From contig CACVBU010000682.1 in NCBI GenBank assembly GCA_902728285.1, forward strand, positions 463,970 through 527,969: 64,000 nt of DNA. The letters run 5' to 3'. Below, piece by piece: positions 40 to 52,300 of the stretch (the first letter of the stretch is position 1; the number at the start of each line of letters is the position of its first letter). Both the position numbers and the translations under genes were made by a program. The notes below the pieces were generated by a model, which was given only the letters and a program-made list of their open reading frames with translations, was not told where the DNA came from and ran no database searches. The DNA is from Clytia hemisphaerica. Taxonomy: Eukaryota; Cnidaria; Hydrozoa; Leptothecata; Clytiidae.

Positions 40-3000
40 TCTATTCAAAGCTTCCAAAACATCAGATGGTGCAAGATTCAACTCATCCAAGATTATCCAG
101 TGACCTTGTCTCATAGCAGTCACCAAAACACCTATGGCATAGAATGTAAAAAAGTAAACACAAAATATTCACTTTCCTTATATCAAATACAGTTTTTAGC
201 AAAAGAATCAAATTGATTGTTACCTTCTTTGAACACCAGATTTCCATTACTATCAGCACCATAGCATCCAACATACTCTTGAATATCTGTATGCTCATGA
301 TTGTTAATTCTCATGCATTGATTTCCTGTAAGGTTTGCCAAATATGAAATCAAACTGGTCTTTCCAACTGATGTTTCACCTTGGATGAGTACAGGAAACT
401 GTCTGAAAATATGAAAATAGATATTGTAAATGGTTTTGGCATCTAAGGTATGTCTTTCATTAGACTTCAGAAAATTAAACTTTAATGATTTAAAGATTAG
501 AAAGTTTTAATGATCCACTTCTTTAAAGAAGGCATTGAATTTTTTGGAATTTTAAGATGTTTGATATTGCTTACCCTCCTGCAACAACTCTTGCCAAATC
601 TTTGAGATTCTTCTTTACACTTTTGGTTAGAACATAAGATTCATCTTCAAGCACCTTCTTTGCACCGATTGGTATCCAATAGCCTTCAGCATTGATCATA
701 TTTTCTTGAGGTTGAGGAATAGTTCTTCCCAAAAAGGATTTGATGTTAGAAACTGTCTTGAAAACATGTTTCAATATGGTTCCTTCAACTATTGGATATG
801 ATGCCCTGTTCAACTGGGTTAAAAAACTTGTACATAAACCCTGAAAGAAAAAGAGGATTAGTTAGTTGATTAGGAATTCATTATATGAAGAATATTATAG
901 ATGTGCTTTGCAGGCATATCATTACATATTGACAAAAATAAAACATTATCAATACTTACCTCATAAACAGCTCGCATTGGAGCCATATAAGTTTGTTTGA
1001 TTGCATATTCCAAACCTCTACACAGTGTACGTAAGCTAAAATATTTATTTTATATAATTTCTATTTATACAATAAGTTTGATGCAGAGGGTTTTATAGAT
1101 TAAGTTTTCAGAAGGAGTTTAATTTTTGGAAATTTCTAAAGGATATGTACAACATTCACTACTAGGTAAAAAAAACATTATTTAAGTTCAATGCTTTTCA
1201 CTGACTATCAGTAACTTTTATTCACTGTCATGTCAACTTAGTAGTGATTGTTGTTTGATCTAGCATTTTTTGTATGAAGGGTTAAAACTGATTTGTGAAA
1301 TTGACTGGAGTTAGAACTGTTACCTGAAATGGGGTCTATGACCAGAGCCATCTATCAGCTTGTCTTTAGCAAGTGAACGAATATCCAAGTAAAAGCTAAA
1401 GGCAAGGAGGATATATAAGTTTCTTTACATCTTCAAAATATGAATATTTAACTGTTAAATTGTTCCTGCGGCCTGACCTTAATCTTATAAAAAGAAGGAC
1501 TTTTCAGGAATTCTTTGCCCTGAAATCAATTTCTGGACCTTCATCTTCAAAATATTGAAACATAATGATGTAACTAATGATATGGCTTACTTGACAATTC
1601 CATCAATAATGGCTGAAGAAATGTTCATCTTCTTTAGATAGCATGCAACAAGTGTTTTTAAATCCCCTTCATCTTTTAACTCATCCACATATATTTCTGT
1701 AAACCTTAAAAAGTAAAATATACATTTGAGCTATATAAACTTTATGAAATCTAGTGACAAAAATCACCATAAAATTACTCACCGCCATAAAGTTCTCTCA
1801 TTAAGCAAAGGACAATACATAATAAAAAGCAATACTTTTGATACACATATTGGTTGGAAAGATTATATCCAAACTGACATTTAAAAAATAATTATCTTCT
1901 TGCTAAACTTTAACATGAATTAAATCCAGTAGTGAGTATTAGGTTGGAATCTTGTATTGCAAGCATCAACTTACTTGAAAGCCAGTTCTCATATAAACCA
2001 AATCATGTAATTGGTTTAATAATAACACAATGAAAAAAAATCCAAATTTAAGTCTGGCTACAAAGAGGTTTACCTGTTTCTAATACTGTAGGGTAGGTCT
2101 TTTTTACCGACATCAGTTGCTGGGTTCATGCAAGCAAAAATTCGAAAATTGTCATCTCTCTTGATCTCTTCAATATCTCTATAAAATAAAAACAATTCAA
2201 TTCCTCAGAAAGATGTATAAAATGAAGTTTAGAGGAACAGAGACTTTACATATCAATAAAATAGAACATACCCTCTTTCACTCAAAACAGTTGATCCTGA
2301 TTGACTGTCCAAAAGACCACTTAAGCACTCAAGAGTTTCTGTTGATGCCAAGTTGATTTCATCTAACAAGATCCAGTCTCCTTTTTTTAAAGATTGGACA
2401 AGAACACCTTCGATGAAACTAAAGACCAAACCAGTCTGTGATGAGATTTTGGTTTCTAGGGATTTGATGTCACCTTGTATTTGTATCCATCTTTTTGTAA
2501 TTTCTTGATGGATGGATTCTAAAAAAGGGTTTGTGTAAAGCTGGTAATAGATTGATCTAAGGGAAAGTATTAAACAAAATGTCTTTTTCATAACACTTCA
2601 ATGATGAATATCTAAAAGATTCAAAAAAAAGGAAGAAAATCACTCACTACTTTCTTCTTCTTTTTGTTTTCTTTCTATGGCTTTGGTACAACAATGAGTC
2701 ATCAATTTTATTAATATACTCCATCTTCGATTTGAAAAACATTGATGAACATGCCCTAGAAATTTCACATTTTGTTTTCTGGAATAGGTATCAATAAATA
2801 GCTCCACAAAGGCGTCTTGAATTGGTCTCACTGTTTCCTGAATATCAATTGGTTTGAATCCACCTAGAAGATCAGCAATATCACTTTGTTGGCTCATGTT
2901 AACTACATTCAACTTGCATCCACATTGATTGGCAAGGTATTGAACTGTTGAAGTTTTACCCCCTCCTGTTTCTCCTACCAGCAATACAGGTTCAAAGTTT

Positions 3001-6000
3001 TTCACACAGACAGTTATATCTTCAAGTAATCGTAGAGAATGCATCGTGAATGCAAAGTTTTGTGAGTCGACTTTCATCGAGATTTTATTGTCAATCCTTT
3101 TTACCATTGTTGTTAAGCCAATACTCAAGGTTGTGTCACCTGTTCGAATATTAGGTTTATATTTGAGCAAATAATATTCTACTTTTGCTTTTGTCAGCCC
3201 CAATTTTGCACCTAGAGCATAAGCTATGGATTGTCTTGCTTCAAATGAAGGATTTGAGGTGCAAAAACATTGCAAGGCATGTAGAAAAACAAATTCAACA
3301 GTTGGTGCTGTATTTGATGTTTTGTAATACTCATTCAGGCGGTTGCACCATTTGAATAAATCTCGAGGTGTGTTTTTACGTCCATTGACTTCAATAAAGT
3401 GAACATCCTCATCTGTTTGTAGGTTAGAATCTGTTGATAACATACAGTAAATATCAACTAATTTATTGGTAATGCTGACCAATTTATCATACTTCTTCTC
3501 GATAATCTAAAAAATGAAAAATAAAGCTTTTTTTTGTATATTATGTTTAAATTAATGATTTGTTGTGATGTGTAGGTTTTGCATATTGTTCATAATACAT
3601 TCTGCTTAAATACATTAATCAAATCTTTGAAAAATGAAAGAATTGTAATGGTGTTCAAAGCCAAATATTTATTTCACTCAGAAAACCAACTTAACACAAC
3701 AATAAATGGAGGGTACGAGGAAGCCCTCGTGAAAAATTATATTTTAAAAAGATTTTTTGTACAAGAACGGTTTAGAGGCCCTTGTGCCTCAACTGTAATC
3801 ACCTTACAAATTGTAAAGTAGCGTTGACTTTTATTAGCCTTTGTTGCTACCTGTTCGTCAACTTGAAATAAATTATTACATACTTACATACATACACAAT
3901 TTAGCCAAACAATAATTTTAAGACCAAAATGCAAAGTATTTGTATTTTATAAGTGTTCAAGTTTGGAAGGGATGTTAGGCATTGAAAAAGTAGCAAGATT
4001 ATTTTTACTACCTCAATAAGTTCATCTTTGGTAGCGGATATCATGTTGACAATATGAGATTGCTTCAGCAACATCTTTAAAACTGAATTTCTTTGACCAA
4101 AGTTCGACCTGAAAAATGAGAAAACAAAAAGCATTGTAATAAGTTCAAGCTTGATTTTGCCAAAGAAACAACTGCATTTAAATCATTCTAATATAATAGG
4201 TAGATCTTTTCCATTTAACCTTTTAGTGGCAAATATTTGGAAGCCTTTCTTCATTGGAATGCTTTTACAGTGCCCTGGTATGGCTAGTGATTTCGATTTG
4301 ACCAAGGTTAACAATGTGGAGATAACATCAGAAGGAGCTTGATCAATGTCTTCCAGCAAAATCCAACTTCCAAATTGAACGGCTTGTGTTAGGGTTCCAG
4401 CTTGCCAAACAAACTCTCCTGGCTTGTCTGAGCAAACATATGTACCTAACAGGGACTAAAATGCAAAAATATATATATAATAGTATAAGGGTTTATTTTA
4501 AACACCAAACAAATGACGGTAAAAGGTAAAAAAAAATAACTATAACCAGAGAGATAAGTAATCTTCTCATTCATCAAGATTCTTTTTTCTAATAATTGAA
4601 GACCAACTGTAATTTTTTTAAGAGCAATTATTGTTGCCCTGTTGTAAGAATACAAAAAAAGAGACATTTAATACAGAATCAAGAAGATTTTTTTGATTGT
4701 TTATACAAAAAAACATACTTTGCTGTCAGTTTGTTCTCCGAGTTGCAGTTTCAGTAACTGTGGTGACTTCTTCCTACCCATTTGGTTTGCAACAAACTCA
4801 ATCAACCTTGTTTTCCCACAACCAACAGATCCTGACAAAACAACCAGGTTATTGCAGAAATAGCCATATGTCAACGACTCTAAATTTCTCAGTGTTGAAT
4901 TTGTCAGCACCAAATCATTTGTTGGCAGCTGTTCAATAGTGCTATCTTTGCTGACTTCAAATGGCAATCCAAGGATAGGCATCAAGTCACTTTTGAAATT
5001 CGATCTATCAAAAGATTTATGCAAGTTAACACTAATGCCACTTTGACAACCAGTATCTAAACTTTTCAGTCTCCATGTTTGTATATTGCTTATTTTCTGG
5101 TAATGATTCACTTCATCTTGATTAAAAAATTTCAACAAAAAAGAGTCCATATCAATGATGCCATGATTTAGCCCAATTAATTTATATGCATAAAACTTGA
5201 TTGTTGTTTTGTTAGAGCTACGAAATGTAAGAATGATCTTCTCTTTGCATAAATCAGTTGGTAGTATTTGTGATTCACAACACCAATGAAATAAGATTTT
5301 CAAAGCTAGTTCAATAGTTTGTTCTGATGTATATTCTGAGATTCTCCTTGATATGTAGCTCATAAAAATTGATAATGGTGACTTCCAAAATGATGCGATT
5401 TTGTATGAAATCAAAATTTCAACAACTAACAGTAATTCCAAATCTTTCGTTTCTGATTTTTGAGAAACAGTAAGAAGTCTATGCACTAATTCTGGCATCA
5501 ACTTGGGAAAGTATGTAATGACACTGGACAATGTTTTTGAGCATTCCAAAAGATTTGATAACCATACCAAGATGTCTTCTTTGTCGTTTAGATTCCATAT
5601 CTAAAGAATTTAACAGTTATTCATGTGAAGGATTGTATAACGCAAGATAGTATTAATAAGAATCTACATTAATAAGGTCGAATGCAATAAAATAATGCAA
5701 TTATTTGAAGAAGTTTTTTTTAAATGACTAATTTCAGTATTCTTTTTTCCATAAACCGACAAAAGAACTTGAAAGGAACTTGAAAGGTTTCAAAAAAAAT
5801 ATACAAATTTCTGAGATTCAATCATCATAATTCTTTAAATTAAATAAGAGGAAAAATTCTTCCTACCAATCTTGTGGAGATTTCTTTTAGTCTGTTAAAG
5901 TCCTTTGCAAATTTGGGAGATATGATCTTGCTTTCTTCTGCATGTTGGCAAAACTCTGACAGCTGTGTTGACACATCTATCAGAAATAGGTTTTTGCTTT

Positions 6001-22336: not shown

Positions 22337-25172
22337 AACAAAACCATGAGCTTGTTTTCAAAGCAGCAGATGATCCCAGTCTTATGTTGACAAAGTATGG
22401 AGAACATTTGTACGATCATTTAGTCATTTTTGCTCCATCTGTTGAAGGTATGAATTTACTAAATTATATCAATATTAATGAAAATAATTAGTGGGTAACT
22501 ATTACCTTAAGCAGGCTGAATCATTTGAGGCATGCGATGGCGCTTGCTCACACCTCCACACACGCCTAAAATTTCTGAGGAGACTACTATTAAAAGTGGT
22601 GAATAGCATGCCATATCACACGCTAATTTAGCAAAACTAAGATTTTAGGAGCGTGATTGACCACACTCCTGGAGTTTTCAAATTACAAAGCTTGCATAAG
22701 TTGTTAGAGAGATAGGAATATAGGAGGTTGGAATCGCTGATAGACTGCCTCTCTGATTGTGACAATAATTTTTTTCAAATATCTAAAGTCACTTTGACAA
22801 CCAATTATTTGATTAGTACCACTCTCTTGTTTAGAATTTGGTGGATCAATCAGCGTTAAGTCAATCACAGCATTCATTGATAATGGCGGCAACGTTCTTG
22901 TCACTGGTAGCTCATCTGTTGGTGAGTAACATAACAAAAATTTAGAGGTTTTTTTTTTTGCTTTCAAAGATCACAATATGCTTTCGACTTGAGTTATTCA
23001 GTAATGTAAGTTTTTTGATGATTTAATTTTCCATCTATGATTTCAATTATCTCACCTGATTTGCTGGCTAGATTACAATCCTTTAATATCTTATTATTTT
23101 TTTGCCAGGTGGTCCAATCAGGGAGCTTGGAAGTGATTGTGGAATTGAGTTTGATGAAGAGAAAACCTCCGTTATTGATCACCATAATTTTGATTCTTCT
23201 GATGAAGGAAGTGTGAGTTTTTTTATTTTATCATGTGTTGGACAATCTTCTGCTTGCCGTTACGTCATCCTTGGTCAAAGGTTTTTAGAGATGGGTCAGG
23301 CTAATGGTAAACCAAGATAAAGTCCAAGCATCAGAAGTGTGAATACAATAGAGAAATCAAATTTTAAGTAATATGATAATTAGCAATCATATTATATCAT
23401 TTTATGATTGCTACATGGAATTGATATTTCATGAACCATGTATCAACAAGGACATGCTTCAACCATCGCCTCAAAAGGTTCTCATATAATTGGATAGTGG
23501 GTGGCATTTTGAGACCTGGATTAAAGAGTGCGTGATTTTTTGCATCAGCAGTGGTTACTTTGGTTTATTCTTATTAATGTTTATTCTCTCCTTTGTTTTC
23601 ACATACAGCACACCACCATCTTGACAGACGGTAAGAACATCATCAAATCTGATGTCATCATCCCATCAAAGATCGAAGCACCAATCATGTTCAAAGGAGT
23701 TGGAATGACCGCAGACAATGATAATCCTCTAGTGTTGGAAATCCTCACTGCTTCATCCACTGCATATTCATATTATCCTGATGAAAAAATCTCCGAAGTA
23801 ACTATTTTGATTTACTTATTTTTGCAAATTTTGTCTCGCTTTTTTCTGCAAGCATCGATAGCGTCTTACAAGGCTCAGATTTGTTATTCTAATAATGTAG
23901 CTGAAAGAATTTCTTTTTCAAAAGTATATGGAATTGAAATCTAAGAAGAATTCATTCTTCCTTACTTTTGGTATTAAATTGTTAAATTTTTCTCCTTCCA
24001 GTACCCATTAGCCGTCGGCCGCAACACCCTTCTCATTGGTGGCCAACAATCACGAAACAATGCTCGCGTTGTGTTCTGTGGTTCCCTTGATCTCTTCAGT
24101 GATCGATTCATGATGTCCACTGTTCAAAATGCTGCCCAAAGTACATCTGAAAGGTAAGAAAGAATGGTACAAATAAGATAAATCTTTGATTTGCCCTTAA
24201 CGAAGAAATTTTTAATTGATCCAAACAGGTCTTTAGACCACGCAGATTGTTTAACAGAAAACCTAACAATTTTTGAATGGTATGCTTGATTAAAATTGAG
24301 ACTATTCTCTGTCCGTCAAAATACAAATGCACTGTTAAGAGCTGTCTTTGTAATCTTTTTCCCTCGTTTGTCTTATTCAGTTTCACAAGAAGTGGAAACA
24401 TGGAATTAGCTTTCGATATCGCTCAATGGACATTCAAACAAAACGGTGTTCTCAGAGTCATCAATGTCCAACATCACCTTGAAGGGGAGACAACACCACC
24501 AAATGCTTACACCATCGAAGAAGATGTTGTTTACTCCATCAAGATTGAGGAACTCAATAAGGGTGTATGGAGACCATTCCAAAACAAGGATGTCCAATTA
24601 GAATTTTTCCGTATCGATCCTTTCGTAAGAACATACTTGACACCGACAGCATCTGGTGAATTCAAAGTCCACTTCAAACTTCCCGATGTTTACGGTGTCT
24701 TCAAATTCAAAGTGGATTATGATCGTATCGGATACACTCACCTTTTCAGCTCAACTCAAGTAAGATTTTGTTTACTTTGAATTTAAATTCGTTTCTTTTG
24801 GTATAAAGAAGCTTATCTTTGACTAACTGACATCTAAATTTTTAAACTTCAAATACTGACCCTTTTCCGTTGATTATTTCTTGAGTTGATGATTCCTTTA
24901 CAATTTTAAGATTATTGAAAAGGAAATCAGATAAGTAGAAAATGTCATATTTCCTTAATCATTTCCCTAACTATCCTTTAAATCTTCTTATTCATTCATC
25001 TCTTTTTCTTTGTTAGGTTTCAGTACGACCCAAACAACACACGCAATACGAGCGATTCATTTCGTCCGCTTACCCTTACTACGCGTCCGCTTTCAGTATG
25101 ATGATCGGTATCTGTATTTTCAGTGTTGTTTTCTTGCACCACAAGGAGGATAAGAAAATCAAAGATGAGTAG
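22337..25172 (+). CDS. DDOST: Oligosaccharyltransferase 48-kDa subunit, 5' end missing
   Basis: DDOST (OST48) is a type I membrane subunit of the ER oligosaccharyltransferase that N-glycosylates nascent proteins. Seven exons join in phase: 22337-22447, 22835-22921, 23109-23212, 23609-23797, 24002-24153, 24381-24759, 25017-25172 (about 391 codons to TAG). Conserved blocks include [77 protein letters not shown] and [10 protein letters not shown], followed by a C-terminal transmembrane segment ([13 protein letters not shown]) and a short lysine-rich tail. The signal peptide and first roughly 50 luminal residues are absent: no matching exon was found upstream, where repeats begin. The first exon starts in phase 2, which matches the donor of the last ACP6-like exon. 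Confidence 0.93.
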
Positions 25173-25914: not shown

Positions 25915-27299
25915 ATAGAAATAAGTGAAAATAGTTTTAGCTGTTTGTTTTTCTTTATACCTCCATGCAACCACTTAGGGTTTCGTGTTCCTTATAGAGG
26001 ATGCTTAGATGCTATATGCGGTTTTGAAGAGGTTTACGATTCAGACTACAATAGTCCAATTCCTGGACAAAATATTTGAGACATGAAAGGGGATTTCCCT
26101 GCGAAACACCACAAATGATTTTTAAGCGCATTGAACTACAGTTGGAAAGTAGAGTTGTAATTCTTTAGTTTTTACATGAGACGTAAGACCACTTACCTTA
26201 GGATCTTAGGGTTTAAAAGATCAAACTTGCTCCAATAAGGTTTGGGATATAGCCTAGAAGCCACCCGAACTTTAAATTCTGAAAAAGGTTAGAATATACT
26301 AAAATCTTAATCGATTTCGAACATGATTGTCTGAGAATCTATCGATGAAATCTGAAGAAAATCCCGAAAAAACCCTTTTTGGAACATTTCCGGTTCTTCA
26401 GACCAGAATTTTTTCTTCGAGGGTGAAGTCATAATTTCACATCTTTGTGCAAAAAATCAGAAATCGAAGGAGCAGCCAAACTCCAGAGAAGCTAATAGCG
26501 GACTACAGATACAATCATGACCAGAATATGTTGGCATCTTTGGTTATTTTAGCGTTTTACAGAATTGTTTACAGTAGGTGACCCCCAAAACGTCTATCCA
26601 AATTGAAATTTTTCTTGTGAATTAAGCTTCAACATGTCTAGTTTCTTTCTCAAAAGATAATTTTCTTAAAATAAAGGTTTTTTGCATGATTTTTGTTCAG
26701 TCAAATTTGAGTCACATTTCTTTAATGGCCCCCAAAACGGAATTTTATTTTTTTCGAAATATCTTGATCAAAAAGGGGTCAAAAAGCATAGCGCTGACAT
26801 CAAATTACTATCAATGCGTATGATGGCAATGCTTTACGACTTAAAAAAGTCAAAATTAACTTTTCTCTTTATCTTCATACAAATGGTTGTCAAAACAGAG
26901 GTTAGTGGCCCCCAAAACGTCGATTCAATTAAATTGAAATTGTTAAAAATCTATTACTAAAACATATCAAAACAATAAGTGTCTCGGGCCTGGCTGATTT
27001 CAAAATCCCGTGCAAAATACTAGTAGTCTCTAATGTTAATTTTCCGTGAAATATTTCGAATTTTCTGAAAACTTTGAGTTACTGAGTATGTATGTTTGTA
27101 TATGTTTATACTTTACAGATATACCCAGTTTTTAGGGGTTGATTTCAAATTTTGTTTGACTTTTGACTGTTTTGGGGGCAACATGCTGAATGGACCTACC
27201 TAATGATTAACATCAGATGAAAATAAGAAAAAAGTGACAATCATTGTACAAAAATTCAAATATATAAAGCTTGTGTTTTGAATAATTTAAAATGGTAAA

Positions 27300-37700: not shown

Positions 37701-40700
37701 ATAGCTTGGTCCAGGGATATATAAAGGTCCGTGACAACGATAATTAGTTGATAGTAAATCTCTTATATGGGATTCACTACCTACATAAGTTGCATAAAAA
37801 TTAATTTCACATGTCGCGCTATTTGTCGTGATTTTAATGGTAAGATAATATTTGAATTGTTTTTCATATCTTTTGCCCTAGGAAGCCTCAATCATTTTTG
37901 TATTTTATTCATTAGAAATGAGCACTTCCTATAGAGTTATTAATTTGTCAAACAGTTAAGCTGTGACCTGAACCAAAAGAATTAAGATTATATATTATGA
38001 ACTTAACGATAAACTTTATCTCGTCATCTTTAAAACGTAGGGGGTGGAGTGTTTTTTTTATTATTACATGAAGTCAAATGAGTAACAAATTACTCCTTAT
38101 CCGAGGGGAATTAGATAAGTTAGCCATTTTCTCTACCTGAAGTGAGTATGCAAAACATGTACTCGTAAACGTTAAGAAAGAAAAATATTCTTTTCGGTGA
38201 AGTCAGATTTGCATGATGGGTTTGATAGTGAAAGAATATTACAGAGAAAATACAAAGAAGTCAAAAACCACTCTGGTCCAAGAATACATGTTGGGCGTCA
38301 ACCAAAAGGCTCTCAAGAACAGTCAAAACATTTTCTCAAGTTTTACACTGTTAATAAAACTCCTTTTGACAAGGATTGTGATAGGCTTACAACCAAGATC
38401 CGCGATCTCAAACATAACATCATTGCTACGTAATGTTTTGCTACCAGTTGGTTACCCCGATTCGGTTTGTCCAGAATACATCGAATTCCAATTTTGGGAT
38501 ACACTACAAGAAGCGTGTGGATATTTCCGTGCCATCTTGAAGAATCAAGCCTGGCTGACCGTCTTGGGTGTTGGAGATGCACAGGCTAGTGTTGTTAGCG
38601 CTGTCACCATGACGATGATGGTCGATTATTCCGGGATGGTCAGCGGGCTGTATTTTGCAGGATCACAAAAACGGGTCAAGAAATTTGCAGCAAATCAGAA
38701 ATACTGGACTATGGTACATGAAGTTTTGATCCTGATTTCTGCCGTATTGACTCTTGTTTCTTCCGTATTTCCTAAACATCTCATTTTGATTTTGGTCATC
38801 GGGCGGGTGATTTCAACCGCCGCTGGCGTGATGAACGGAAGCTGTCAATCCAACTTGGTGACTCATATCGCAAGGAACAACAATTTTGCTGATTGCAATG
38901 CAAAAGAAGGCAACCAAAACCGAATGTTGAAGCTTCTACTCATCGGGATTGGGTACAAGTTTCTCATTTTCGTTAACAAGACTGGGGAGAGAGTCTTATT
39001 GGCTTTTATTGTTCTTTCCATGGGGAAGTTGTTTTGTAAGTACCAATCTTTGGTGACATTGAGACTAAGAACTTTGAGTGAGAATCGTTTTTTCTTCTGT
39101 ATCAGACAATGGTACAAAGGTAACATTGAGAATATGACCACAAACAAAATTTCAAGAGAAGAAAGCGTTCTACTTCCACCAAAGAGTACCATAGTCGATA
39201 CATTTGGCTGCTCTATGTCCGACTTGCACTGTTCAACAGAACATTTGGAGAACCTTGAAGAAATGCATCGAAGCTGTAAACATATTTTGATCGCAGGTGA
39301 TCAAGCAAATCAGAAAGTGAATATTCTTTTGAAAAGCGATTCCAGCGATAAAGATTACCTATGTGCATACTTACATTCTTCATTTTATCAACTAATAGCG
39401 GACGAACGTAAGTACACGGACATAGTGGAGTTGACTCGATTGTCCTTACAGAAAACAATGGCAGATCTGGACCCTTTGCTCGATCATCTTGAACAATTAG
39501 ACTGGGATATCAAGAACTTGTCTTTGTTACCCATAACAAATATTCGAGTTGATCTAACGAGTGATCATTTGAAGAATAAGTGAGTTATTAGAATAAACAT
39601 TAATCTAATTTGTCATTGTTTTGAGGTAGATTGAATTAAGGTTATGCACATTTTTATGTAATTTTTAGAAATTTTTTAAAAGCAAATATTTCAAAATATG
39701 TTACTGAGGTTAAGATGTTTATTCTACCCCGTCCAAAGAGATTGCAAACAAAAACCGACCGTAATGCAAAGGCAGAGGGTTCGGCTACGGTGCGTAATGA
39801 ATGCAGGTTCAATCCTCTGCCGGCTCATACCATAGTCTCCATAATAATTACAAAATGGAACTTCAATCAGCGCCGAAATATATTGGCAATTTTGGGTATT
39901 TTAACGTTTTTGGGCGAGAATTGCAGTACTTCCACTTTGCTTCATTTGATTTTTCGATTCAGGAGGGGTTAAGTGGCTTCCAGGCTATATTCTCAGCCTA
40001 ATATTGGAACATTTTTGAGCTTTTAGATCCTGAGATCCTGAGATCCTAAGGTCTTAAGTCTAATGTTAAAACTCAGAGTTCCAAACTGTACTTCAAAGCA
40101 CTTAAAAATCACTTGCGGTTTCAAAGTTTTGAGAAAATTCCATTTTTGTGCCAAATATTTCGGTGCTGATTGTAATTGCTTTGATTCTCAGCAGTTAAAA
40201 GAATAAATGGAACAATCCAAGAAAAGGAGTGGCGTTCACCCCAACCTTCGGGTAGACAGCTATCGAAAGAGGAGCTTTCAGGTCGCCCCCGACTGCGGTC
40301 GCAGACTTATTACTTTGGTCGGCGAAAAGTAACAGATTTAGAATTTTGGCCGGGCAAAAGCGACAAAAATGAATTTAAATGTTAAAAATTTTCCCAATCT
40401 AAGTTTCCCCTATCAGGTAGTTGAATACCGCTGAATTTTTGGAGACTAAATAAAATATTTGAATGTATTGGAGTACTCACCGAGATATCAATGTTGATAA
40501 TATCTCCCTCTTCAAGTTTACGGCTGAAAAGTAATACAAGAAAATCATATTATAAGACCGTGTCACATGTTTTGAGCAATGCATGCTGGTGAACAGATGA
40601 AGCTTTCAGTTATTGCAACGTTTTTTAGATAGGTTCTATATATGTAGTGACCCAACATCACTGAGGAATGGTGGATGGCACTAGGACAAAAGTCGGTAAA

Positions 40701-46300: not shown

Positions 46301-49300
46301 AATATTTTTTTTCGCCGAAATAACAGATGAGAATAGAAGTGAAAAAGATCTTCGTAAGATGGAACAGCTTCGAAGAAAAATACTGAGTTTGAAACCGAAG
46401 AGTATCGACACCACAAAATGTACTCCAAGAAAATCTTTATACGAACAAATCATAAGAACTTCACAGAAAAGACTTTCTCATCAAATCACACAATTCAATC
46501 TGGGTAACGGGCAAGTTTTTACCGATCCAATTCAGGCAGCAGAATATCTTTTGGAAAGGGAGTATGGCGAGTCTTTTCTCTTCCAACCAGACAACAATGA
46601 GGCCATCTTTATTCCACCTGAGTTCGTTTCCAACCAATATTGCAAACAATCACCGAATCTGGATGACAACATCGAAGAAAATGTCAGGAGAAGCTTACAA
46701 AATCTTCAAGAGCATTCACCAGAGGACTGGTTCACCAAAGCTTTGGTTGACTTTTTACAAACACCAATGGGCGGTGCTTTTAACGAAGAAAGGATCGATC
46801 AGAAAGCATTCGAGAACTGGATTCAAAACGTCAAAGTGAAGTATCTCGTATTTCAAGAATTGGGGAAAGAGAATGTGACCTTGCCTGAAACGACTTTGGA
46901 AAGCAATACTTTTATCAGTGACTGTGTCAAGCAAATCAAACTAACCAAGCCTGATTCCAAACTTTTGAAGGCTTTTAAAGGAAAGAAAACCAAAAGTCTG
47001 ATGAAAACACTCATTGAAGAAGATCTGCCAGACAACCCTACAATGAAATGGTTTTTCGATATCGAGTTATCAGAGAGAGGGGAATTTGTAGAACGAAAGT
47101 TATTTGAAGAACTTGTAACACTTAAGAATGACGAAGTCTTGCAAGATGTTGTTATTTTACAATCAGCGATTTTCATGACAGATGTGGGTAACAAGAAACA
47201 CCAAGAATTTGATTTCCTCATCTTCTCTTGGTCAAAAAAACTGATCATTGGAATCGAAGTGAAAACACAATTGTCTAGCAAGAGACCGTTCGAACAACTC
47301 GATAAATATCACTCAATCTTCGAAGAGAGGTTAGGTGATCAGCTTGGCAAAGGATGGACCTTTTGCCCAGCAATATACGTTGCAAAGGATAAGTTCTTGC
47401 TTCAGAATCGTCATTATATAAGCAAAGATACAAACATCAAGTTATGGTTGAAAATTATCATAGATTCATTCCCAGAAGTACTTTCACAGACACCCTCTAT
47501 ACATCCTATAGAGCAACTGAAGAAAATTCTCAAAATAATCGTTTTCACTATCTACGTGTCAAAGAAAGACCAGCAGAAACCAATCACTTCGTCGTGTTGG
47601 ATCAATTATGTAAGTGAAGTTATCGATTCGTTGTCGTCGAGTCAGAACATTATTTTCTACTCCCAAAAACAGCATCCAGTGTTGACAAGCAGTGACCCTC
47701 GATACAATAAACTGGTCATTTATGGCGGTTTTGGCACAGGGAAATCATTTCTCCTCCAAGAAAAGGCCATCATGATGAGCAAAGATGACAGATACAGAGG
47801 AAGTGTACTTTATTTGGTAGCATGGGAAGGGCTACTCTATCATGAAAGAAAAACAACACTTGAACCTTATGGAATCAAAGTAGGATATGCATTCGGGAGT
47901 CAGGTAAGTTAGTTAAAAAGTTCAAGGTTTTCTGACTGTTTCTGAATTCAGATTAGTATGGAGATAACAATTTAACAATCGCAGGGAATATCTATACTAG
48001 AAGCCTGAGTGGACTGGGTTGGAGTTTACAAGGAAAGATATATCTGAATCTATGGCATTTATAGAGCAGTGATTTCAAAATTTTAGTGTGTCATTCCTTC
48101 CTACAGTCAGCTTTAACGGCTGAAATATTTATTGTCCTGATATTATCAAAATCCTAAAGAATTAGAAGTACAACAAAATGACACGAATTAAAGTAAAAAA
48201 AAAACACTTCAAATCCCATTCTTTTGTTCCATAGAGGGAGTTTGATGAAAAACAAATGACAATGCAAAAAGCTGTTTTTCTTGACGAATGGGAAGAAAGT
48301 AGCACCTTCAAGTTATCAGTATTTCAAAATGCTGACGTATGCTGGATTGCTTTAAGTGCATTTGGTCGGGAAAGAAGGCATTTTGATGGAAACAAGTTTC
48401 AGTCTATTCAACTATCGCTGAATCTCCGGAACAGTAAAAGCATCGTCAAGACATCGCAAATTAAAGCCGAGAAAGAGTTGTGCGACTATTCAGATAGTTT
48501 GGAAGAGCCACCGACAAATTTTCCCACAGGACCACCAACAGACTATGTAGACTCTATCATAGAAGCTGTAACAAAAGCACGGAACGAAACCGACGGGGGT
48601 ATCTTAATTATAACAGATTGGGAGCTAGAATTTTCAGATATCAACGAACAATACAAGTTTTACATGAGAAATGGAGAAGACGACTTTTTAGGGGGAAGTG
48701 ACAACCCTTATGAATGGTTGAAGGACGGTAATATCCTGATAACATCACCCTCAAACGTAGAAGGTTTTGAATGGCCAACGATCATCTGGAGAGAAGAATC
48801 ATCCGGATATCTATATTCACTTGAAAAGTTTGGTTCTGGTACGATCATGAGATGCACAACACGTTTATATATCGTTGGTCAAGATGAAGAAAACACATGT
48901 AATCAGGAGCTCCCTTTCAACCAAATTTCAAAATTGTTAAGAATTTCAATTACAGATAATGAACTGATGGCTCTCTTCAAATCTTGTGCTAAGAGAATGA
49001 TTAGCGAACACCTTCGTTTCACCGAAAAACAAGAGTGGCTTCGGAAGTTTCTACCTATTATCAAGACAACTTTGATGAAATTTTCAGAATTAGGGGATGC
49101 ACCGTCTAAAGAAATCATCTTTTCTTCATTGAGTGAATTTTTGTTGCTCATGATTACAGAGCTTGTTAGGATACAGAACACTTTTGATGCTGACGAAGAA
49201 GATTTAGACTTACTCAGTTCGACTTTTCATTCGATCATACAAGAAGATTTCTGCAGTTTATCAACTTATTATAGTAATGAGAACTACGTAGCAGTAATAA

Positions 49301-52300
49301 AATTTGACAAAATGGAGCGAGAAAAACAAATGAAACTGTATCTGCTGAACCAAAAGTACCTCAATTATGGATGGCTACGGGCCGTGTTTGCTAGATCTTT
49401 AGAAGAGTACAGAAAGGAAAAACAGAATAATGTTCCTATGTCAGATGACCTGATAAGATTCTTTGAGATAAACTTGCGAACACCGAAGATCGATATACGC
49501 CGCCTCCAAGGTTCGAAGTTCAGCGTTTGGGCATTTAGAAAGAACTTCAAATCTTCGAGCGCTCTATAGACTCTGTTGAGGAGCAAGCTCTGCTTCTCCG
49601 TTCACCACAAGCGATTATGCGAAGCTCAACACTTAGTGTTTTGAGCACTCTGGTGACAACAACAGTCCATGCTCGCTTACCCCATGGAGGTATAAAGAAA
49701 GACAGGAGATGAATTTGTCCGTAATTGGTCGTTAAAGTCTTTTGATTTCTTTTATGTAATAAATCAAAAGAAATTCTAGGCTCGCCCGATGAAATATGAC
49801 TTTTTAGTAGAACTCAAGTTTTCTCTGAACATTCTTACTACCAGCATCGAAGATTTCTAGCCTTCTAATTATACGAGAATAAAATAAAATTTAGCTCCAC
49901 GAAATAAGTTTGCGTTCAATTTTGTCATCCATTAAATTTTGTTTTGAAAAGATATTTTCTCCAGCCAGAAAATAAAAAGTTCTTTATAAGCACACACAAT
50001 TTCAGACCCAATTTGTGGACAAAAAGTCGCTGGAGAATTTTGGAGGAAAGTATTAAGCAATAGAGTTCACCTTGAAGAAAATGTTGATCGAAAAATCTTG
50101 TCATTTGATGAAGGATTGCAAAGTTTACAGGCCTTTTTTAATCCAAATATTTTCTTACACCAATGTCAGAAACAATGGATCTCGTCTCATCTAATTTCTA
50201 CAACTGAAATAAGCCAATAAGATTTCACCTATCAACAAAAGAACTCATTAAAAATGCACGATATATGAGATTATGAGCATGCATACCTCGTAATTTTTTT
50301 AATCGTAGGGCGAGCATGGTTACAATAGTATACTTCTCCTGTTTCTTTATACCTCTATGCTTACCCGAGCCGCACTGATGAGTCCTGGGAAGGACGAAAC
50401 ACGTGTCTGCGGATAGATGTATAGGAAACATAAAAATTAAAAAACACAATTATATTTTTTGACGTATGTACCTTTAAATCTCGATATTTTTCACCAGTAA
50501 ATTGTTTGACATTGTAATTCAACATCACTGATAACCTTTCAGCTAATTTCTAAAACAGAAAAGTGGAAAACGTGTACAGCTCCCTTAAGGTAGCGTCCGA
50601 AAAAAGAACAGAATAAAACGTAAAATCCTCAAAACTGATTACTTCACTGAAGTTTATATCTTAAAATTGGAATATGATGGAATTTCTTTTGTTCAGTAGA
50701 GATAGATATTCAGTTCCCAAGGTAATTAAACTCGTGTTTTTGAAAAAGAATCCCTATAAATCATGAGAATTTTTTGTTCCACTTTAAAGGACACGTTGTA
50801 TACTGGGTGAAAGAAATTTCCCTGCATCCAAAAGCTATACTTACAAGCCAAGGTAAAAATTTATCGGAAGGCCATTGCGATGAGAATTAAATGTTTAGTT
50901 TCAGGGGGCGGCTTAAGAATAAACTCCATGTTTTAGCGAATTGTTATTAAACTTCAAAAGTCATTTTCAAGACGTGCTATTGTTAAAATAATACAAATAC
51001 GAATTTTAAACGAAAATAAGCTTCGAGTCTTAAATATCAGTTATGGTAAAAAAGATTTATTAAAAAGCCTCACCTCCTGTAAGAAAGGTTCTTTGATTTC
51101 CAGTGTCAAATAATGCAGCATATCTACCGTCTCAGAGGCTAGTGTAAGGTATGATTTACACTGCCGTTCGTCGGTCGCAAGTTGCCGTTGCCGGGACGTT
51201 CTACCCTCACGCGGTAACTTCTCCCATTCGGTCGTGTTGGCCATCAGTTCTTGTGTGTCTCGAATGTTTTTGAGCGTGTCCACAGATTCATCGAGAAGGA
51301 ATGTGGTATCGTTAATTAACATGTTGATGAAGCGTGTGAAATGATCGCCACTGAAAGTAAAGATACAGAAGATTTTAGAGCATGTTTTGTCTGGAATGCT
51401 AGACGGCTAAATTTAAGAAAGAGCAGGGTAGAGTATGGAAGACTGATGGACTTTTCTTATAGCTTTATGAAAAATTAATTTTATCCCGTAATAATTATCG
51501 TATTTTTATTCTAGGGTTTTGGTGGCATGGGAAGATCTATCAATTATCGTTTTCTTATAGCACCTTCATGACTGTACAACAACGCTCTAGACTATAGGAG
51601 ATTTCAAGGTTAATTAGCTTTGGCTGGTTGGTGTAGTTCTTGGTCGGATTATACATAGCGAATAAGCCTAAGACACTGACACAAAAAGCGATCACAAAGT
51701 TCTTTTCCCAACTTTTCCCAGCTCCATAGTGTCAAAAAATCTGTGGGTCTTCGGATTAAGCTTATGATTTACAAAAAACTATTAAACATGCTGAACCAAA
51801 AAAACAATCAAACCACAAAATCAAAGTTTATGATAACTATTCGGGAACACTGAAACGGCTCCAGGAATTATAAGAGTTCTTAGGAGTGTGTATGTACATT
51901 TTATGACTTTGAATTTCAAAAAAACAAAACAATTTTAGGCATTGCAATTTTGCGTCTTTGTACCAAAAAGCTGAAAAAAATGAGCCAATCTCGAGAAAAG
52001 TTGGCAACAGACGGACGAACGAACGAATGAACAAAAGTGAACTTATAGGACGTCCAGGTAGGTCCAAAAAGCCTGGTCTTACTTTGTTTCCAAAATAAAT
52101 GCTTGTCTATGGATGGGACGTTTCCATAAACCTTTCAATATGATGGAAATATGGTAGCGAATACCAAATTTGTCGTAAAATTCATTCGAACTTCCAGTTG
52201 ACTCAACATCTGAAAGAGAGAAATGAACAGCAGTTGAAGCAAAAGTATTGTACTCTTCAGAATAAATTTAAATTCTTTTGTTATGGTGATCTGTGCCCAT

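Follow-up and report, generated by a model that had tools for sequence, protein, structure and literature searches.

The window, a stretch of 64,000 nucleotides of a Clytia hemisphaerica contig numbered here from its first letter, contains the following protein-coding features:

2640–5570, minus strand: exons matching midasin-type AAA lid and AAA domains
24277–24780, plus strand: exon matching the OST48 middle domain
38213–39583, plus strand: exon matching a root-UVB-sensitive family protein
46359–49569, plus strand: two-exon-like protein, with open frames of 517 and 437 aa
48256–49569, plus strand: open frame belonging to an expanded protein family (the second frame of 46359–49569), with its last ~10 codons and stop inside a retroelement copy

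The protein of 46359–49569 received no Pfam assignment above the cut-off. Its second frame (437 aa) has 97 listed genome matches, itself included, at roughly 31–45% identity, which indicates a large expanded family; no other genome match extends past residue 405 of the 437. At its end, the frame runs into a repeat that carries a hammerhead ribozyme motif and is itself split by a DNA transposon:

49541–49682, plus strand: 5′ part of a family A retroelement copy, 93.7% identical to the copy at locus L091 over 142 nt and short of a full turn by ~20 nt at its start
49676–49682, no strand assigned: CTTACCC, left copy of a 7-bp target duplication, from alignment with transposon copies and sister copies
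49683–50359, no strand assigned: DNA transposon of 677 bp with terminal inverted repeats, recognized from its genome copies and their 7-bp duplications, inside the retroelement copy
50354–50358, plus strand: TCTAT, distal stem I strand, formed by transposon bases that equal those of the family by coincidence
50360–50366, no strand assigned: CTTACCC, right copy of the 7-bp target duplication, from the same alignments
50360–50421, plus strand: 3′ part of the family A copy, with the hammerhead, 95.3% identical to L091 over 50359–50422 and with a 3′ end common to sister copies
50370–50412, plus strand: type I hammerhead, from sequence reading and Rfam RF00163 (its parts, below, from sequence reading)
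50370–50374 and 50408–50412, plus strand: proximal stem I, CCGCA with TGCGG
50375–50381, plus strand: hammerhead CTGATGA
50382–50395, plus strand: stem II, GTCC (50382–50385) with GGAC (50392–50395), loop TGGGAA
50396–50399, plus strand: hammerhead GAAA
50399–50406, plus strand: minimal stem III of two pairs, A50399–T50406 and C50400–G50405, loop ACGT
50407/50408, plus strand: predicted cut, after C50407

The core bases that a preliminary description of this locus had reported at 50341–50429 are all present, base for base, and its designation of the motif as a type I hammerhead with a minimal stem III is borne out by both the sequence reading and Rfam: RF00163 (type I) matches 50368–50414 at 30.4 bits, with an E-value of 5.5e-5 in 2 kb. 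The core can be called complete in the sense that every part is there; the match spans the full length of the model (1–45), yet falls below the gathering score of 34. The motif has the CUGANGA, GAAA, and NUH core elements and stems I–III that define a type I hammerhead, with stem I as the open stem, and both a stem I internal loop and the stem II loop are present. The hammerhead was the sole Rfam match above chance level in 49300–51300, and a scan of the entire window returned no families at or above gathering score. A loose core pattern by itself occurs once in the window, and 10 of 100 shuffled sequences also contained it. With at most three mismatches, a 26-base pattern spanning core and stem II gave 179 matches in the 417-Mb genome, as compared with none for the reversed pattern; together with the E-value of the RF00163 match, these counts place the window hammerhead beyond chance. 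Judged by its sequence, the window motif is a real hammerhead, for which self-cleavage is predicted. The hammerhead-constrained fold of the window strand (−24.4 kcal/mol) is not its minimum-energy fold (−28.7 kcal/mol), and the same applies to the sister copy L033 (−19.2 vs. −22.1 kcal/mol).

The 179 matches also agree with the earlier view of the locus as a solo, retrozyme-type copy with relatives elsewhere in the genome; the statement that only one full copy is seen is true of the window and untrue of the genome. The genome search with the Rfam hammerhead model that had been proposed as a check returned 65 matches at E ≤ 10, none of them above gathering score and the window copy not among them; this search scored 74 of 48,628 candidates, and its matches are no census. 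RF00163 matches at E ≤ 10 were also produced by 11 of 14 control genomes.

The region upstream of the hammerhead requires a different description from the one first given. The 677-bp transposon has the inverted ends CATGGAGGTATAAAGAAA and TTTCTTTATACCTCTATG; its first bases, CATG, are presumably reminiscent of P-element ends. Its first 118 bp were matched by 40 scored genome copies at 97–100% identity, the window copy included, and the family as a whole is represented by many nearly identical copies. A 7-bp duplication flanks 15 of 15 copies that could be aligned at both ends, again including the window copy, from 20 fetched copies of which the remaining five aligned only partially. Once the insert and one CTTACCC are removed, the window sequence aligns unbroken with sister copies, and the retroelement copy therefore consists of 49541–49682 and 50360–50421. 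The four-segment stem I of the preliminary description does not survive this finding: 50342–50359 is the transposon end, and the outer segments pair that end with host flank. In a comparison of 61 family copies, each with its 3′ flank paired to this transposon end, the window flank came second by duplex energy, which is unusual but explicable by chance. The supposed second monomer end at 49689–49701 is instead the other end of the transposon, and the match near 25955 lies in a further end fragment of the same transposon family (25946–25967). The upstream part, 49541–49682, is not a second monomer either; alignment with sister copies shows that it belongs, as the 5′ section, to the monomer that carries the hammerhead.

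An intron placement is likewise not upheld, as the retroelement copy starts within the final codons of frame 48256–49569 and provides its stop codon. This arrangement, with the hammerhead in sense and just past the stop, would suit a ribozyme recruited by the host to control the 3′ end of the neighboring gene, which the preliminary description calls a nuclease-helicase. We regard such recruitment as highly improbable: the window copy belongs to a repeat family dispersed in many copies whose flanks are unrelated, it has been split by a transposon, and matches to the protein elsewhere in the genome stop short of this end. Taken by itself, the window copy is an unremarkable repeat, decayed and interrupted. 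On sequence grounds it can be described as a fossil in which the core could still be able to cleave transcripts that read through it. The final TA of 50360–50421 may belong to the target rather than to the element, and no clear target duplication was found at the flanks of this copy.

The window hammerhead forms, as judged from the alignment of its copies, the 3′ end of a single copy of a non-coding retroelement of ~202 bp, here termed family A. A genome query with a 100-bp stretch gave 231 candidates, and the 40 matches scored among these were mostly confined to ~50359–50421. For a fuller comparison, 82 loci were tried, and 65 distinct copies were aligned after eight same-flank duplicates and nine low scorers were dropped; a few near-duplicates persist among the 65. 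Every core base is intact in 33 of these copies, the window copy among them. One turn of the unit measures 183–207 nt in five copies (202 nt in L081), with a GC content of 0.48–0.50. Circular folds of the five one-turn units showed no extra stability relative to shuffles (z −0.7 to −1.4), and the idea of an extra-stable circular fold was rejected accordingly.

Family A copies share their 3′ end, ...GTC/TGCGGATAGATG(TA), in which the slash marks the predicted cut; beyond it the flanks are unrelated. The 3′ end thus sits ~12–14 nt beyond the ribozyme cut, and the 5′ ends vary. TA directly follows GGATAGATG in 38 of 49 copies. Of the 49 copies, 26 have a duplication alignment score of at least 9 (1.0% when flanks are swapped between copies), and 38 have a score of at least 7 (11% with swapped flanks); exact target duplications of 10–14 bp occur, among others, in L035, L083, L085, L099, and L103. 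By its sequence features, the anatomy of family A is that of target-primed reverse transcription, with TA common to primer and RNA.

The distribution of 5′ ends was assessed in two samples. In the first, comprising 28 distinct copies chosen by the hammerhead alone (30 loci, two duplicates), truncation occurs at scattered positions in 21, and the seven that reach one turn all stop 202–216 nt from the 3′ end. The second comprised all 50 hits of a pattern at unit positions 18–41, reduced to 46 by the removal of four duplicate flanks; here 27 copies start at unit positions 7–14, eight at positions 0–6, and five at 15–20, while three start no more than 6 nt past the cut and three lie further back, more than 6 nt into the previous turn. 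These start positions are alignment-derived, overlap the duplications, and are blurred by a few nucleotides, and a one-unit shift (+202) was set by hand. If truncation proceeded at the rate seen in the first sample, 8% of starts would be expected at positions 7–14 and ~34 of 46 beyond −6, as compared with the 27 and three observed; P values for the cluster presuppose independent copies and a constant rate. Nine of the 46 copies are without a good hammerhead match, four of them among the 27, and setting these aside leaves 23 of 37. Two of the loci, L105 and L108, have most of their 5′ flank in common. An inverted family A hammerhead lies directly upstream of the 5′ unit part at both, within similar flanks.

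With a 3′ end at position 12–14 and a 5′ cluster at 7–14, the two ends of a copy meet when the unit is drawn as a circle. We judge it fairly probable that family A inserts when an RNA circle made by the ribozyme is copied by target-primed reverse transcription, which usually ends after one turn. The main rival is a SINE-like scheme, in which a linear RNA starting near unit position 9–13 is copied from a 3′ end recognized by a LINE or Penelope-like enzyme, with the hammerhead either trimming the RNA or being incidental. Such an element would account for the target duplications and for the way in which copies end: a constant 3′ end, 5′ truncation, and a start that full-length copies have in common. 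However, 14 of the 46 copies hold sequence that continues the unit upstream of position 7, around the ribozyme cut, which argues for a multi-unit or circular template; the starts are scattered over about 7–14 rather than fixed, and their meeting with the 3′ end on the circle would be a coincidence. The unit moreover contains TTTT, a usual stop signal of polymerase III. On balance, a SINE-like origin seems unlikely, though worth keeping in view.

Copies extending beyond one turn bear on the template as well. A junction pattern gave eight genome hits. L082 and L084 contain all or part of the preceding hammerhead, and L085 contains a few bases of it; L172 has two cores 201 bp apart, corresponding to ~1.2 turns, with the core bases kept in both and a stem II mismatch and shortened stem III in the first. 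L044 and L083 start at the cut or within 2 nt of it, as ribozyme-trimmed linear RNA would, which suggests that linear templates may also be usable. These two starts are also consistent with a linear multimeric RNA as the general template, on which the enzyme halts at the hammerhead for a structural reason, and the cut-proximal stem I, at positions 0–9, adjoins the start cluster. Copies with the 3′ end, however, would already have been copied through the same hammerhead when synthesis started, so that the structure is presumably passable, and we consider this explanation improbable.

Under the preferred reading, copies with more than one turn would be transcribed, and we infer that their hammerheads excise unit-length RNA by cleavage, that a host ligase closes it into a circle, and that a borrowed retrotransposon enzyme, Penelope-like or LINE, nicks the target. 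A primer ending in TA would anneal to the UA at unit positions 13–14, just beyond the ribozyme cut, and the enzyme would copy the circle, usually halting at about one turn, where it runs into the beginning of the cDNA that it has made. This would leave a monomer flanked by a target duplication. The window copy would represent one such insertion, later split by the DNA transposon. Since a monomer contains one hammerhead, no new unit is releasable from it by two cuts; only copies with more than one turn, such as L172, could free a unit in this way.

Potential helper enzymes were sought through their nuclease domain. GIY-YIG matches are plentiful in the genome (150 scored of 401 candidates, many in frames of several hundred codons), and Penelope-like enzymes are thus probably available. 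The family A tail (GGATAGATGTA, at most two mismatches) was not found in six 3′ flanks beside GIY-YIG matches; a Penelope-like donor with a common 3′ tail was therefore rejected, and no donor is assigned. Inspection by eye revealed CTGATGA...CGAAACATGT downstream of the GIY-YIG matches at L130 and L134, and a TTGA[AG]AA...CCGAAA motif downstream of those at L129, L131, and L132. We take these motifs to resemble minimal Penelope hammerheads; Rfam at E ≤ 3 identified no hammerhead in the six downstream stretches (L129–L134). No shared tail was noticed by eye downstream of two LINE-like open frames in the window.

The same genome contains a second hammerhead repeat family, family B, with a unit of ~300 bp. 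Fetched loci include solo copies and tandem arrays of two to four (observed at L003–L006, L009–L026, L029, and L030). A pattern near the unit start gave 78 genome hits, for which 37 stretches were fetched, either the most upstream per array or singles. By eye, 16 of the 37 continue into the previous turn, and about a dozen start near the unit boundary, a weak indication given that this boundary is a TA run.

We lean, if only slightly, toward a broader proposition: that the genome records insertions for which an RNA circle served directly as the template of target-primed reverse transcription, with ends that coincide ~12 nt past the cut, about one lap of synthesis, and rare overruns. If this is true, a monomeric copy would lead no further, and new circles could be seeded only by overrun copies such as L172, L084, and L082; family B would be a case in which the enzyme often keeps going past one turn. 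The one-turn 5′ cluster and the TA-anchored duplications would then make the circle-template model testable from the genomes of many animals alone.

Several known systems share parts of this anatomy. SINEs are small and 5′-truncated, with a fixed 3′ end and target duplications, and family A is likewise; no tRNA-, 7SL-, or 5S-like head was noticed in family A. Hammerhead repeats of Schistosoma do have a tRNA part, according to passages of PMC4918200, which also describe duplications of 15 bp for repeats of Nematostella, as well as cDNAs that differ in length. Plant LTR retrozymes, as portrayed in sections of the same paper, resemble family A in being non-autonomous and hammerhead-processed, with circular RNA as the proposed template; they differ in their LTRs, type III hammerheads, 4-bp duplications, and circles of 600–800 nt (portions of PMC4918200 and PMC7229834).

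Penelope-like elements that carry minimal hammerheads share with family A a hammerhead near the element end, an internal start of reverse transcription, and AT-rich targets (parts of PMC11167929 and PMC7761336). The Penelope-like enzyme of PMC11167929 shows internal initiation in the portion of that paper used here, where it starts at a site non-homologous to the cut DNA, whereas the start site of family A has TA in common with its target. Penelope-like elements further encode a reverse transcriptase and a GIY-YIG nuclease, unlike the ~202-bp family A.

The closest resemblance in kind is to the metazoan non-LTR retrozymes, described in sections of PMC7229834 as elements of 170–400 nt with circular RNAs, for which LINEs or Penelope-like elements are named as candidate helpers; passages of PMC7761336 state that no motif betrays the helper of the metazoan repeats and that cDNA longer than the unit is expected. 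Family A is similarly non-coding, with a type I hammerhead and a small stem III; its unit falls within the 170–400 nt range, its GC content is below the 50% given in the text portion of PMC7229834, though above the 45% limit of a figure legend there, and it has duplications of more than 4 bp and no LTR. Ribozyme-made RNA circles have been proposed as insertion templates in parts of both retrozyme papers (PMC7229834 and PMC7761336), and the circle-template model is common to family A and the metazoan elements of PMC7229834. As far as the sections of PMC7229834 extend, those elements are tandem, from dimers upward; family B matches this published form, whereas family A is mostly a single turn or shorter. 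Mapped 5′ ends at one turn were not found in the portions of the retrozyme literature surveyed. The kind of element is already known as the retrozyme type; what merits further attention is the pattern of ends at a single turn.
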